This document shows, one piece after another, positions 7,808 to 50,721 of a DNA stretch of 64,000 nucleotides. The stretch comes from Lyngbya aestuarii BL J (GTDB lineage Bacteria > Cyanobacteriota > Cyanobacteriia > Cyanobacteriales > Microcoleaceae), in the NCBI RefSeq assembly GCF_000478195.2, contig NZ_AUZM01000019.1, positions 1 to 64,000 of the forward strand. The letters are read 5' to 3'. The notes beneath the pieces are model-generated. The model worked only from the letters and a program-made list of their open reading frames with translations, had not been told where the DNA came from and did no database searches. The translations under genes and the position numbers were made by a program. The stretch's first letter is position 1. The number at the start of each line of letters is the position of its first letter.

Positions 7808-8611
7808 ATGACTAACTTTTGGAAGACTGTGTTCAATTTTGCCCAAACCACGACGACTGAAGTCGGACAGCAGTTAAGGCTTGACTGGGGTTCAGTCCAA
7901 GCCTCGGAAAAGTCCGATGGAAGTTTAGTCACCCAATCTGATCATTGGGCTGATCTAGAAATTCGTCGTCGCATTAACGACACATTTCCCGAACATGGTC
8001 TTCTTTCTGAAGAAGGAGAACATCTTTTCCCCGCTACCGATTGGTGTTGGATTATTGACCCAATCGATGGGACAACCAACTTCACTCGGGGGCTTCCGAT
8101 TTGGGGGATTCTCATGGGCTTGTTGTACCGAGGAACCCCTGTCTTTGGTTATGTTCATCTCCCCCCCTTAAATCAGTCTTTTCATGGCTTATGGCTGGAA
8201 AATACGGGGTTAACTGGCCCGAGTGGTGCTTTTCGTAACCAGCAACCGATTCACTCCAGTTTAGACACTCCCGGTTCTGATCATTTTTTTAATGTTTGCA
8301 CCCGCAGTACCGCTATTATCCCGAATATTCCCTGCAAAATTCGGCTGATGGGGATGGCGGGTTACAACTTCTTGATGGTGGCTTCTGGTGTTGCCATTGC
8401 TGGGGTTGAAGCGACACCCAAAGTTTGGGATATTGCCCCTCTCTGGCCGATTCTGAAGGCGGCGGGGGCGGTTTGGACGCCGCTAAACCCTGAACCGATT
8501 TTTCCCCTCCAACCCGGAGAAGATTATGGTCATCGTTCCTATCCGATATTAGTGGTTAGCCAAGAACAATGGGTTTCCCAGTTTCAGCCTTTAGTCCAGT
8601 CTTTACAGTGA
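7808..8611 (+). CDS. Inositol monophosphatase family protein
   Basis: 267 residues with all Mg-binding motifs of the family: LLSEEGE (residues 60-66), WIIDPIDGTTNFTRGLP (about 78-94) and the C-terminal VWDIAPLWPILKAAG. The family hydrolyses inositol-1-phosphate and related sugar phosphates. In cyanobacteria several paralogues occur and some act on histidinol phosphate or fructose-1,6-bisphosphate, so the substrate is not fixed. Cytoplasmic, no signal peptide. The next gene is convergent, 40 nt away. Confidence 0.9.
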   Translation: MTNFWKTVFNFAQTTTTEVGQQLRLDWGSVQASEKSDGSLVTQSDHWADLEIRRRINDTFPEHGLLSEEGEHLFPATDWCWIIDPIDGTTNFTRGLPIWGILMGLLYRGTPVFGYVHLPPLNQSFHGLWLENTGLTGPSGAFRNQQPIHSSLDTPGSDHFFNVCTRSTAIIPNIPCKIRLMGMAGYNFLMVASGVAIAGVEATPKVWDIAPLWPILKAAGAVWTPLNPEPIFPLQPGEDYGHRSYPILVVSQEQWVSQFQPLVQSLQ

Positions 8612-46724: not shown

Positions 46725-47528
46725 ATGATGGTTTCACAACTACCCCAATCCGAACAAGTTCATCAAGCTTTAGCAGAAATTACAGCCTTTGAACAGTCAA
46801 AAGTTCCCGGTGTTTGGCGAGGACTGGATAAAAACCAACTCATAGTACAATTGCGATCGCGTATTAATAATCCTCTCACATTAAACCAAGGAAGTCAACC
46901 CTTTTGTGGGCCGGCTGTGATTATTTTTGAACTGATTCGTCGTGATCCTTTGTCTTATGTAAAAATTTGTCGTAATCTATTTCAAATTGGCGGATTTCAT
47001 ACTCAGAATGGAACTTGGATTTCTGCATCTGAAAATTTGCTAAATGGTGAAGGAAATTATAGAATGCCGCAAGTTGACTGGATGATCTTATCAATCTTAA
47101 GAGAGTCAGAAAATTTAATGGTTCCGATTCATCCCAATACATCGGATATTGTTCGTAATGTGGGCGGAATGACGAAATCTTGGGAAATTGCCAAATGGGT
47201 GAAAGAGATTTTAGGATATCAAAAAATTCAATATAAAAATACTTATCTATTTGGAGATTTGGAAGCCATGCAAGATGTTTCTGAGGCGTTAAATCTAGGG
47301 GGTGTTGCTTTAGCTTTGATTAACGACGGAGGGTTACTCAGAAATCAACCGCCACGCATTCCTTATCCGAGTCATTGGGTATCAATTTTAGGTAATATTG
47401 TCGTTCAATCTAAAAGTTCTGTTCTGTTTGAGGTTTATACTTGGGCAAAAAAAATGCAAGTTCAGGTGGATGAAGTTACGTTTAAAACCCATTTTTGGGG
47501 AGTAGTGATCGGAAAAACTACTAGATAA
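46725..47528 (+). CDS. Papain-like (C39/NlpC-like) protein of unknown role
   Basis: 267 residues. I recognise no named family, but the pattern is that of a papain-like cysteine peptidase: C61 in SQPFCGPAVIIFELIRR starts a long helix, as CGPT does in C39 peptidases, and H217 in YPSHWVSILGNI starts the central strand. VYTWAKK is the last strand, where a polar third residue would lie. No signal peptide. Follows the sulfotransferase by 62 nt and precedes the tandem repeat and the ATP-grasp genes. Peptidase activity is an inference from pattern only. Confidence 0.6.
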   Translation: MMVSQLPQSEQVHQALAEITAFEQSKVPGVWRGLDKNQLIVQLRSRINNPLTLNQGSQPFCGPAVIIFELIRRDPLSYVKICRNLFQIGGFHTQNGTWISASENLLNGEGNYRMPQVDWMILSILRESENLMVPIHPNTSDIVRNVGGMTKSWEIAKWVKEILGYQKIQYKNTYLFGDLEAMQDVSEALNLGGVALALINDGGLLRNQPPRIPYPSHWVSILGNIVVQSKSSVLFEVYTWAKKMQVQVDEVTFKTHFWGVVIGKTTR

Positions 47529-47601
47529 ACCTTGTAGGGGTGTAAGGCTTACGTCTCATTAAGAATGACATTTTGACAGACTTCTCTTTGTTGAGGATAA
47601 G

Positions 47602-47837
47602 GTTAAGAGATGCTTCACGATGTTCAGCAAGACAGGAAAATAATTGGTTTTGAAGATGAAGTTAAGAGATGCTTCACGATGTTCAGCAAGACATGAAAAT
47701 AATTGGTTTTGAAGATGAAGTTAAGAGATGCTTCACGATGTTCAGCAAGACATGAAAATAATTGGTTTTGAAGATGAAGTTAAGAGATGCTTCACGATGT
47801 TCAGCAAGACATGAAAATAATTGGTTTTGAAGATGAT
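47602..47837. repeat. 59-bp tandem repeat, four copies
   Basis: Unit starting GTTAAGAGATGCTTCACGAT and ending TTTGAAGATGAA, at 47602, 47661, 47720 and 47779. Copies 2-4 are identical; copy 1 differs by GACAGG for GACATG. The last copy runs into unique sequence after 47837. The period is not a multiple of three, so it is not coding in a continuous frame. Each unit contains the imperfect palindrome GAAG...CTTC. Confidence 0.95.
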
Positions 47838-48059: not shown

Positions 48060-48845
48060 ATGCTCGTTTCAACATTTGAGTTACTGTTAAAACCCATTAC
48101 TCCGGTTGAGGGTAATGTTCCCGGATCAGCCCGTACTGTTTTGCAAGGTTATTTCCTAACCATTGCTAATCCTAATAATACCCCTTTACGACTGAGACTG
48201 CGGTTTTCTGCAACAACGCCTAATCTAAATTTAGATGATACAATCACCATTCGAGATGTTGTCGGTAATAATGTTTTTGGTGACTTAGTTCCCACTGCTG
48301 ATCCCCGGAAATTCAACTATGATATTTCAATTCCCGCTCACGATACCGCTTTAGTTATTTTACAACCCGACATCACTAAACTCAATCCTGATAGGGATCA
48401 ATTAGAAATTCGGGGTTATGTAGAAATATTTTTACAAGGACGCTTCGGAAATTTCCAACGTTTCAATGTCTTAATTACGCCTGAACATCGCGGTACTTTT
48501 GTTAACAAAGGTGTGATGAACTTGTCTGAGTTTGATCAACTGGTTTATAGCCTTCCGACTGCAACCGGAAGCAGTTTGTTTGAACTCACTAGCCGAGGCA
48601 AAAGCTTCAAAGAAATAAAACCAGAAATCAAAGAAATTCCTGATATCAAAGTTCGGGAAATTCCAGACATTAACAAACCCAATCCCGATAATATTACGAT
48701 TCCCAATCCTGAAATTCAAGAAACATTGGGTTTAATGGCTCAAACCATTGATAATATTCAACAACGTCTCGAACAAAATGGGGAAGCTTTTATCTCTCCT
48801 GATGAACGTCCGGCTGTTGGAGATCAAGTCCTAAACGAAGTCTAA
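48060..48845 (+). CDS. Unknown protein at the head of an ATP-grasp gene trio
   Basis: 261 residues. The first 150 residues look like a beta sandwich (FELLLKPITPVEGN, YFLTIANPNNTPLRLRLRFSATTP, FNYDISIPAHDTALVILQPD, VEIFLQGRFGNFQRFNVLITPEHRGTFVN). A Pro/Ile/Lys/Asn-rich linker follows with threefold short repeats (KEIPDIK, REIPDIN, TIPNPEI, about 197-225), and then a C-terminal helix (ETLGLMAQTIDNIQQRLEQNG). No family recognised. 14 nt before the next gene, with AAGGAGG in the gap, so the three are an operon. Could be the ligase substrate or a scaffold (inference). Confidence 0.65.
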   Translation: MLVSTFELLLKPITPVEGNVPGSARTVLQGYFLTIANPNNTPLRLRLRFSATTPNLNLDDTITIRDVVGNNVFGDLVPTADPRKFNYDISIPAHDTALVILQPDITKLNPDRDQLEIRGYVEIFLQGRFGNFQRFNVLITPEHRGTFVNKGVMNLSEFDQLVYSLPTATGSSLFELTSRGKSFKEIKPEIKEIPDIKVREIPDINKPNPDNITIPNPEIQETLGLMAQTIDNIQQRLEQNGEAFISPDERPAVGDQVLNEV

Positions 48846-48859
48846 AAAGGAGGCGAGTA

Positions 48860-49555
48860 GTGCTGATTGTATTAGCTAGTTGTTACGATGAGGCTGCTCG
48901 CTTTTGGGTGGAAAATTGGACAGATGGAGATGTGACGTTACTCACTCCAGAGGATTTATCAAAAAGTGGGTGGCGTCATTATCTCGGAAGTCTTCAAGAC
49001 TCAACAGCAGTCATCAGAGATCAAGTGATTTCTGTCGAACAAATTACCGGAGTTTTAACTCGTTTACCCTGTGTATTTGAACAAGAACTCTTGAGTATTG
49101 TTGAGACGGATCGCCCGTATGTGGCGGCTGAAATGACAGCCTTTTTAGGGTCTTGGTTGGCTGATCTTTCCTGTCCAATCCTGAACAAACCAACACCGAT
49201 TTGTTTAATGGGTACGAATTGGCGACCTCAACAGTGGATTTATGCAGCTTCTCAAGTGGGAATGTCTGTAGAAACTCACCATCAATATATTAGCTTAAAA
49301 ACTGAACCTAAACAAGCCCAAATTCCTTCAGAGCGAGTTAGTGTAACAGTAATTGGCGATCGCTATATTGGTAAAGTTGATCCAATTTTAGGAAATCAAG
49401 CGAAAAAACTTGCTGAATTTGCAGGTGTTGAGTTGTTAGTTGTTCATTATAATCGCCCGGAAGCAGATGCCCATTTTCTCAGTGCAGATTTCTGGCCGGA
49501 TCTCAAATCTTCGGAGATTACCACTGCCATTTTAGAATACTTTAGCGAGATGTAA
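48860..49555 (+). CDS. Pre-ATP-grasp-like protein lacking the ATP-binding domain
   Basis: 231 residues from GTG 48860 (AAGGAGG 6 nt upstream). Its middle part (ITGVLTRLPCVFEQEL...AAEMTAFLGSWLADLSCPILNKPTPI...QQWIYAASQVGM) follows the same plan as the N-terminal pre-ATP-grasp domain of the next gene (VTGVYLRPYESRRLP...ALVLNRPSAM...PYQLQKIRQAGF). After this it has no ATP-grasp Lys, Glu and Asn motifs. It therefore looks like a catalytically dead half-paralogue, possibly a partner subunit. Function unknown. Confidence 0.6.
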   Translation: MLIVLASCYDEAARFWVENWTDGDVTLLTPEDLSKSGWRHYLGSLQDSTAVIRDQVISVEQITGVLTRLPCVFEQELLSIVETDRPYVAAEMTAFLGSWLADLSCPILNKPTPICLMGTNWRPQQWIYAASQVGMSVETHHQYISLKTEPKQAQIPSERVSVTVIGDRYIGKVDPILGNQAKKLAEFAGVELLVVHYNRPEADAHFLSADFWPDLKSSEITTAILEYFSEM

Positions 49556-49558
49556 TTT

Positions 49559-50518
49559 ATGTTGACTCTACTGTGGGGATTACCCGGAGATTCACCTTTG
49601 TATACTGTTTATCAAGAGTTGAATTATCTGGGTTTTCCAACGGTATTTTTAGACCAACGGGAGATTGCCCACATTGAAATTTCCCTCTCTGTCGGAAGCA
49701 CAATTGCAGGTGAAATTTGTACACCTAACTTCAAAATTGATCTCAATCAAGTTACAGGTGTCTATTTGCGTCCCTACGAGTCTCGCCGTCTTCCGATTGT
49801 TGTCGAAGCAGGTTCTAATAGTCGAATTTGGCAACACGCCGCAGCAGTTGATGATGCGTTACTTTCTTGGGTAGAAATGACCTCTGCATTGGTTTTAAAC
49901 CGTCCCAGTGCAATGGCTTCTAATAATTCTAAACCCTACCAATTACAAAAGATTCGTCAAGCAGGTTTTCTTGTTCCTGATACTCTTGTAACAACCGATT
50001 CTGATGCAGTTCATAAGTTTTGGAAACAGCATGGAAGTGTGATTTATAAGTCGATTAGTTCGACTCGGAGTAAGGTTTCTCGTCTGAGTCCTGAACATCA
50101 CAAACGTCTGGCTAATGTTGCTTGGTGTCCGACTCAATTTCAACAATATATTCCCGGACAAGATTATCGGGTTCATGTGGTGGGTGAGGCGGTTTTTGCC
50201 TGTGCGATCGCATCAACTGCGGATGATTATCGCTATCCCGGTGATACAACGGATTATCCTCAATTAAAAAGTGATATTTTACCCCTAGAAATTGAACAGC
50301 GATGCCGACAACTCGCTTCCACCCTGAAACTTCCTCTAGCGGGTATTGATTTACGGAAAACTGATGATGGCGAATGGTATTGTTTTGAGGTTAATCCGTC
50401 GCCGGGATATACATTTTATCAGCAAGAAACTCATCAACCGATCAGTTTAGCGATCGCACAGTTACTCACTCAACAACAGCCACAAACGTTGGGAAAGGTA
50501 AACAGTATAATTGGTTAA
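49559..50518 (+). CDS. ATP-grasp ligase, RimK-like
   Basis: 319 residues. Pre-ATP-grasp domain (1-115), then the ATP-grasp fold with a nucleotide-binding Lys in SVIYKSISSTRS, QFQQYIPGQDYRVHVVGEAVFACAI, the adenine and metal region LPLAGIDLRKTDDGEWYCFEVNPSPGYTFY (Asp, Glu, Asn as Mg ligands). This is the arrangement of RimK/graspetide-type ligases, which join a carboxylate to an amine or hydroxyl through an acyl phosphate. Third gene of the trio, 3 nt after the second. Substrate unknown; a 57-residue peptide gene is convergent 29 nt downstream. Confidence 0.88.
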   Translation: MLTLLWGLPGDSPLYTVYQELNYLGFPTVFLDQREIAHIEISLSVGSTIAGEICTPNFKIDLNQVTGVYLRPYESRRLPIVVEAGSNSRIWQHAAAVDDALLSWVEMTSALVLNRPSAMASNNSKPYQLQKIRQAGFLVPDTLVTTDSDAVHKFWKQHGSVIYKSISSTRSKVSRLSPEHHKRLANVAWCPTQFQQYIPGQDYRVHVVGEAVFACAIASTADDYRYPGDTTDYPQLKSDILPLEIEQRCRQLASTLKLPLAGIDLRKTDDGEWYCFEVNPSPGYTFYQQETHQPISLAIAQLLTQQQPQTLGKVNSIIG

Positions 50519-50547
50519 CCTCGCCCCGTTTTAGGCAACAGAACTTT

Positions 50548-50721
50548 TTATTGGGGTGTATCTTCCTTGGATTGAGGAGATTTCTTCGCTGTTGTTAAAC
50601 CCGCCATTGACCAAGTGAGGCTGACCATAAATGCTTTTGCAAGTGCATTGATTTCTTGGGTTTCCTCTTTTAAGTTGTCTTCGGATTTAGAGGTCAAATT
50701 TTTGTTTGTGTTGTCTTCCAT
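50548..50721 (-). CDS. 57-residue peptide gene next to the ATP-grasp ligase
   Basis: 57 codons from ATG 50721, with GAGGAGA 8 nt upstream. The first half is acidic and polar (MEDNTNKNLTSKSEDNLKEE), the middle hydrophobic (INALAKAFMVSLTWSMAGL), and the end rich in Thr, Ser, Lys, Glu and Asp (TTAKKSPQSKEDTPQ). Size, leader-like start and Thr/Ser/Lys/Glu/Asp-rich tail resemble precursor peptides of ATP-grasp-modified natural products, but no known core motif is seen. It may equally be a small unrelated protein. Confidence 0.55.
   Translation of the reverse strand: MEDNTNKNLTSKSEDNLKEETQEINALAKAFMVSLTWSMAGLTTAKKSPQSKEDTPQ

Follow-up and report, generated by a model that had tools for sequence, protein, structure and literature searches.

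In a window of 64,000 nucleotides (nt) of the cyanobacterium Lyngbya aestuarii BL J (assembly GCF_000478195.2, contig NZ_AUZM01000019.1, positions 1 to 64,000 of the forward strand), by which we mean the whole stretch of DNA that was analysed, three genes that we call S, H, and G (Table 1) are, on the reading of their sequences, a real conserved operon. G is almost certainly an ATP-grasp ligase of the graspetide-synthetase group, the sequence of H makes it very likely that H is a dead partner of G, and we are nearly sure that S and a subtype of DUF1350 hydrolase form a module. What the three genes do together can be said only tentatively: the proposal that we put forward, which we hold at somewhat less than an even chance, is that they encode an ATP-grasp ligase of two subunits together with a protein that is its partner, the ligase acting on S.

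When a class sample of 388 cyanobacterial genomes, drawn evenly, was searched, intact S-H-G was found in 4 genomes, that of L. aestuarii included, and these belong to the three families f1 (own), f38 (genomes G118 and G138), and f16 (genome G302). H by itself matched 4 of the 388 genomes by sequence search, and the same four trio genomes were recovered with a profile. The gene order S, H, G of our genome is repeated identically in G138, G118, and G302 and therefore the set is not a chance one; the unit is rare and scattered among cyanobacteria. The open reading frames (ORFs) claimed in the initial annotation, their coordinates, and the 29 nt to the convergent ORF were all correct when re-read, as were its gaps of 14 nt between S and H and 3 nt between H and G; the corresponding gaps are 147 nt (with the ATG at 8188) and 0 nt at locus L026, 69 nt and 14 nt at L027, and 11 nt and -4 nt at L028. 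A fifth locus, L001 (10001-10870), lies in a metagenome assembly of Symplocastrum torsivum and has an intact S and a frameshifted H, while the end of H and most of G are gone, as read by eye in a sequence where an assembly error is possible. Searches with H in 36 genomes of the family of G138 and in 201 sampled genomes of the family of G302 found it in 2 and 1 genomes, respectively, all of them already known, and no further trio was obtained. A plasmid-borne element was rejected on finding no match of H among 72,556 plasmid records, and anti-phage defence was rejected on finding no PADLOC match for S, H, G, or the upstream ORF.

Table 1. Features discussed in the text (positions are those of the window unless a locus is named)
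Feature	Position	Strand	Description
S	48060-48845	+	261 residues, mostly beta; cyanobacterial family without annotation
H	48860-49555	+	231 residues; GTG start; very likely a degenerate ATP-grasp (pseudo-ligase) without the ATP-binding subdomain
G	49559-50518	+	319 residues; complete ATP-grasp ligase, almost certainly of the graspetide-synthetase group
S tail motif [AS]F[IV]xP	48786-48800	+	here AFISP, residues 243-247
57-codon ORF	50548-50721	opposite to S-H-G, convergent	29 nt beyond G; ribosome binding site
Second half/full ATP-grasp pair	L122:4516-6962 and L130:4445-6867

The ATP-grasp proteins G and H

G matched TIGR04187 (GRASP_SAV_5884, ATP-grasp ribosomal peptide maturase) at an expectation value (E) of 7.3e-43 and 147 bits, which is under the cut-off of that model. 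A profile of G matched the PDB entry 7drm, which we take to be PsnB, a plesiocin-type synthetase, at E 3.2e-34 over almost the full length, compared to E 3.2e-9 or weaker for the RimK-type ligases in PDB. Pfam RimK passed its cut-off of 21 with 24.4 bits for G, and TIGR00768 (rimK_fam) gave 52.6 bits, below the 143.4 set for curated RimK-family membership. The family and PDB matches thus agree with the initial annotation, which had called G a complete RimK-like ATP-grasp; of the resemblance to a graspetide-like pathway that it had also noted, the part on G stands, as the nearest kin of G are the graspetide synthetases, and the four-gene pathway that included a peptide does not. Residues K164, R204, D264-L265-R266, E277, and N279, which presumably have roles in ATP and metal binding, are invariant in all four trio copies of G, and the DFR-type motif is intact but reads D-L-R, with L in place of F. 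The accessible part of PMC13097080 describes the DFR motif as critical for graspetide synthetases. When the window and the four trio loci were scanned for precursors with simple patterns, which other kinds of precursor would escape, neither an ALGEEGG-like repeat nor a usable PFEL leader was found, and a precursor beside the ligase with a leader and a Thr/Ser/Lys-Glu/Asp core, by which a graspetide locus would be recognised, was not seen at the trio loci.

A tree was built from 42 G-type rows, in which seven genes were entered twice under two locus ids; the ORF list of L120, a locus fetched for its G gene, did not show that gene. The four trio G together with those of L122 (genome G107) and L130 (genome G129) were split from the 36 other rows with support of 100/98, and a half-size gene adjoins G in all 6 sampled genomes of this clade. 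The initial annotation had suggested that a half paralogue next to the complete enzyme means a heteromeric ligase, and the presence of the pair in 6 of 6 genomes with the clade fits that suggestion. A joint profile of the half proteins matched 10 of the 388 genomes at E<=0.01, and the strong matches (E below 1e-60) were in exactly these six; the other four, fragmentary and at E 0.007-0.01 (G005, G283, G012, and G380), were treated as chance. No half gene was seen in the gene lists of the G loci L114-L119, L121, L131, L133, and L134. Several of the loci met in this survey carry features of their own. L114-L117 and L121 are probable cyanobacterial graspetide clusters, with precursor-like ORFs that have ALGEEGG-type repeats beside the ligase; at L131:4625-6742 the gene after an ATP-grasp gene encodes a peptidyl-prolyl isomerase domain of the PPIC type, which recalls the partner-dependent MirB/MirC; and the full ligase of L122 ends in a part that matches the WelO5 2-oxoglutarate halogenase family below the threshold.

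The family libraries recognised nothing in H, and its profile found nothing useful among the PDB sequences. With profiles of the four trio copies, H and G matched over 77 columns at E 3.8e-4. When a six-row profile, made of the trio copies of H and the half proteins of L122 and L130, was compared to the 42 G-type rows, 218 columns matched at E 2.5e-6, with positions 1-229 of H lying on 12-312. For this last value the best of 30 column-shuffled profiles reached 0.037, S 0.12, and DUF1350 0.42, and reversed H reached 0.69 against the 42-row profile and 0.051 as its best over five profiles. The H profile matched the six G genes of the clade alone at E 6.5e-4 (212 columns) and a set of 35 other G-type rows at E 0.0043 (63 columns). 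The alignment skips the ATP-binding subdomain of G, and nothing resembling the DLR or FEVN motifs is present in H. As the alignment of H to G runs from one end to the other and this subdomain and the motifs are gone, H is very likely a shrunken, dead ATP-grasp. The initial annotation had taken H for the N-terminal pre-ATP-grasp domain only, which the end-to-end match does not bear out, and for a catalytically empty relative of G, which it does. The frame of H is open over 220-231 codons in four distant genomes, with 32-48% identity to the window copy and many invariant residues.

Some results weigh against this account of H and its clade. When trio H and the half protein of L122 were compared by their own profiles the match was weak (E 0.011 over 36 columns), even though trio H and the halves of L122 and L130 can be aligned end to end. 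AlphaFold gave no usable model of H, the predicted local distance difference test score (pLDDT) being 38, and for this reason the dead-ATP-grasp reading is one drawn from sequence profiles. Within the six-gene clade the trio G do not form one clade and long branches meet, and thus the branching inside it is unsure.

S, its DUF1350 hydrolase and its tail

S was found in 82 of the 388 genomes at E<=0.001, about a fifth, and at 5 loci it opens the trio. None of 21 members was matched by an NCBIfam or Pfam model. The AlphaFold model of S is of low confidence and mostly beta (pLDDT 51); with it Foldseek gave nothing at E<=0.001, the best being 0.015, and the profiles of S and of the DUF1350 hydrolase found nothing useful among the PDB sequences. 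That S occurs in 82 genomes and the trio in 4 means that S does not need the ligase.

What S does keep company with is an alpha/beta hydrolase of the DUF1350 kind. Twenty S loci were fetched for a survey of neighbours, two of which (L065 and L074) yielded no S gene in the ORF listing, and in 14 of 18 S loci without H-G such a hydrolase adjoins S, as judged by eye and for part of them by alignment. In 145 genomes, which are part of the 388, S and the S-type DUF1350 were both present in 27, S only in 3, the hydrolase only in 3, and neither in 112 (Fisher p 1e-22, with relatedness ignored), where the S-type was defined by E<1e-30, a cut chosen after seeing a gap from 1.0e-31 to 2.3e-25 among the matches listed. 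Of the three with S only, one is probably spurious (G098, E 1.7e-4, still counted) and one has a hydrolase fragment at a contig end. In 23 of these 27 genomes a pair is found within 500 bp, and in 22 of the 23 it is on the same strand; in the remaining ones H and G are in between (G138), the two are on separate contigs (G000 and G107), or they are 3.6 kb apart (G094). The end of G carries the hydrolase as a fusion at L026 and L027, with profile matches at both and a Pfam match at L026. The scores against PF07082 were 67.6 bits for the L026 fusion and 81.3 bits for L124, both of which pass the cut-off of 27. The S-linked subtype covers part of PF07082, with E of 1e-18 to 1e-22 in the copies scanned, whereas the other DUF1350 copy of our own genome matches the Pfam model at E 1e-113. 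It is this fusion of G to DUF1350 that ties the ligase to the S-DUF1350 module. A separate observation made at an S locus is an ORF of 64 residues at L132:4880-5074, directly upstream of an S gene, which has the look of a GG-type leader and a His- and Cys-rich end.

As to what DUF1350 proteins do, a 2024 survey describes their roles, in its accessible part, as still to be uncovered (PMC11878206). The plant member AT3G43540 is among the proteins listed for plastoglobules in the accessible parts of PMC9725166 and PMC12587418, and an algal member was found in an eyespot fraction according to that of PMC4678213.

Near the C-terminus of S a motif, [AS]F[IV]xP, was present in 5 of 5 trio S and in 0 of 34 others, a count made on 39 distinct S proteins and not on every S gene of the 82 genomes. 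A tree made from the S domain, with the tails left off, places the S of G080 (L034) and of G242 (L033), both of which are without H-G, together with S from the trios of G138 and G118 (99/99); the other trio S were not placed with support. Directly after the S stop of G080 lie 32 nt that are left over from the first part of H, with 29 of them identical to L026, and the motif is lost. The relic scores 49 as DNA against L026, compared to 21 or less for the other 15 S loci, and as a peptide it scores 44, compared to 29 or less for the other S loci; 1 of 300 whole-gap shuffles reached 44, and the best of them reached 50. With a relic of H following the S stop and the motif gone, the lineage of G080 has, by this sequence evidence, very probably lost H-G and the motif along with it. 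This suggests, on the basis of a single event, that the tail of S is what the ligase recognises or modifies. The conserved N-terminal STFELL of S was considered as a graspetide-like leader and rejected, being present with and without H-G and predicted as a strand.

Several observations count against a tie between S, the hydrolase, and the ligase. S is common without H-G, as the 82 genomes with S compared to the 4 with the trio show; the S-type DUF1350 of our own genome sits on another contig; and the two G-DUF1350 fusions, both within one family, may go back to a single event. The motif was chosen with the trio alignment already in view, it varies among the trio (S or Q before P), and in G302 it is the extreme end of the protein; as it differs in this way, it does not single out a fixed acceptor residue. 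The loss of the motif is likewise one evolutionary event. Against L027 the G080 relic scores 18, where the others score up to 18, and the DNA match of G242 is 21 compared to 18 or less, hardly above the controls, with its peptide score inside the controls.

The convergent peptide gene and the genes upstream

The 57-residue peptide encoded beyond G is, from the sequences compared, best taken as an unrelated neighbour of the trio, because the four relatives lack it at their trio loci and because the loci of its own relatives are without S, H, and G. A search of the 18-21 kb trio stretches of the four relatives, with the rest of those genomes left unsearched, gave no match, the best being chance ones of E 5.1 and 9.6. 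Relatives of the peptide were found in 24 of 59 related genomes at a loose E<=0.1, own included, several of which are surely chance. A clear relative is present in 15 of 19 other loci, and these define a family of small proteins of about 55-90 residues with a conserved hydrophobic segment, VSLTWSLAGL-like (VSLTWSxAGL). When S, H, and G were searched for in those 19 loci (2-3 kb each) none was present, and the family libraries gave nothing above a curated cut-off for the peptide. The initial annotation had proposed a four-gene system that would fall if relatives kept the trio and lacked the peptide gene, which is what the trio loci of the four relatives show, and in place of the variable core for which it had suggested aligning the peptide, the relatives have the conserved hydrophobic segment.

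It had also offered papain-like, sulfotransferase, and glycosyltransferase genes upstream as context. The sulfotransferase and glycosyltransferase are there, the papain-like label of 46725-47528 is without family support, and none of the three adjoins the trio at L026, L027, and L028, so that we rejected them as parts of the system. Between the papain-like ORF and S, at 47591-47836, lie 4.2 copies of a 59-bp tandem unit with 97% matches.

Possible function and known systems

Working from the operon, the homologies, the subdomain missing from H, the pairing of S with DUF1350, the fusion, and the distribution of the motif, all of which can be read from the sequence, we infer a complex of H with G, S as its substrate, and a chemistry. 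G would bind ATP and activate a carboxylate, as graspetide synthetases do, and H, with its ATP-binding subdomain and catalytic residues lost, would complex with G as a scaffold or a substrate-holding subunit. The pair would act on S, likeliest at the flexible C-terminal tail around [AS]F[IV]xP, and the bond made there would be an amide or an ester, as a side-chain cross-link or an amino-acid addition; the DUF1350-type alpha/beta hydrolase, which is otherwise the partner of S, may act on the same product. That S is the substrate of H-G is a tentative proposal, to which we would give a little less than an even chance. A bolder form of it, which is unlikely as it stands, is that a graspetide-type ligase has shifted from small precursors to a folded partner, with a live/dead heterodimer making bonds on the disordered tail of S and the DUF1350 hydrolase, sometimes fused, transferring or removing them.

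H-G could also be a heteromeric graspetide-type ligase that works on a small precursor, or on a metabolite, from elsewhere, with S as a carrier, a chaperone, or a localisation accessory. Relatives of G do sit beside precursor-like ORFs with ALGEEGG repeats, no precursors were found at the loci of branches 7 and 8 and outside substrates have been proposed for them in the accessible part of PMC8939145, and partner-dependent graspetide synthesis is known from that of PMC13097080; but S always comes first at the five trio loci, and the presence of its tail motif goes with that of H-G. We regard this explanation as rather unlikely. It is less likely still that H-G appends amino acids, singly or several, to a C-terminus or a side chain in the manner of RimK, with no side-chain rings. 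The Pfam RimK match of G above the cut-off and the place of the trio motif near the C-terminus of S would agree with such an addition, but G is far closer to the graspetide synthetases, both in PDB (3.2e-34 compared to 3.2e-9 or weaker) and in bits (147 compared to 53).

Two further explanations have very little left to them. H could be a decaying, functionless pseudogene of a duplicated ligase, as its missing ATP-binding subdomain, the relic in G080, and the frameshifted copy in L001 might indicate, but the frame is kept open in four distant genomes with its invariant residues and always beside G, and a second half/full pair exists in G107 and G129, all of which makes decay very improbable. 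That the four genes are a peptide pathway with the 57-residue peptide as its precursor is close to excluded: the gene lies 29 nt past G and has a ribosome binding site, but the trio loci of the four relatives gave no match to it, S, H, and G are absent from the 19 short loci searched, and a conserved VSLTWSxAGL-like hydrophobic segment stands where a variable core would be expected. With the ligase acting on S as our tentative proposal, the trio offers a small case, open to testing, in which a dead ATP-grasp paralogue has been kept as the constant companion of a live one, and in S a candidate protein substrate for such pairs, for which the accessible part of PMC8939145, the sole mention that we found, had none. 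The link between S and DUF1350, together with the plant relative listed for plastoglobules, gives a way into two families without known function. If the bolder form of the proposal is true, this would be a cyanobacterial protein-modification system built from peptide-antibiotic machinery.

Among the known systems close to the trio are the ATP-grasp loci of branch 8, which typically have a truncated, catalytically inactive ATP-grasp and common peptidases, with no precursor predictable, according to the accessible part of PMC8939145 (2022). A literature search for inactive or pseudoenzyme ATP-grasp partners gave nothing beyond this paper, and the phrase 'truncated ATP-grasp' was found there alone among the papers searched; since the accessible part of the paper mentions truncated partners, a live/dead pair can be called known in outline. 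The trio resembles these loci in that a truncated, inactive ATP-grasp is encoded beside a full one and no precursor is predicted, and it may differ from them in its neighbours, as peptidases are stressed in that part of the paper and the partners that recur here are S and DUF1350; the ORF upstream in the window that had been called papain-like is without family support, and no peptidase was recognised when the ORF lists of L026, L027, and L028 were read by eye, without a family scan. With the synthetase of MirB/MirC, which needs and co-purifies with a second protein according to the accessible part of PMC13097080 (2026), the likeness is that of a partner-dependent enzyme, but MirC is described there as PpiC/SurA-like and not as a dead ATP-grasp. 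To the graspetide synthetases (TIGR04187, 7drm) G is homologous over almost its full length, including the pre-ATP-grasp domain, with D-L-R and the ATP and metal residues kept; the trio differs from them in having no precursor found at its loci, the partner H, an operon with S, a score under the TIGR04187 cut-off, and, in two genomes, a G fused to DUF1350. The hydrolase beside S and fused to G belongs to DUF1350 (PF07082), but the S-linked subtype fits part of the Pfam model, and far more weakly than the other copy of our own genome does. What is new compared to these systems is the S family, which is without a Pfam or NCBIfam model, its pairing with a DUF1350 subtype, the fusion of the hydrolase to G, and the tail motif linked to the trio.

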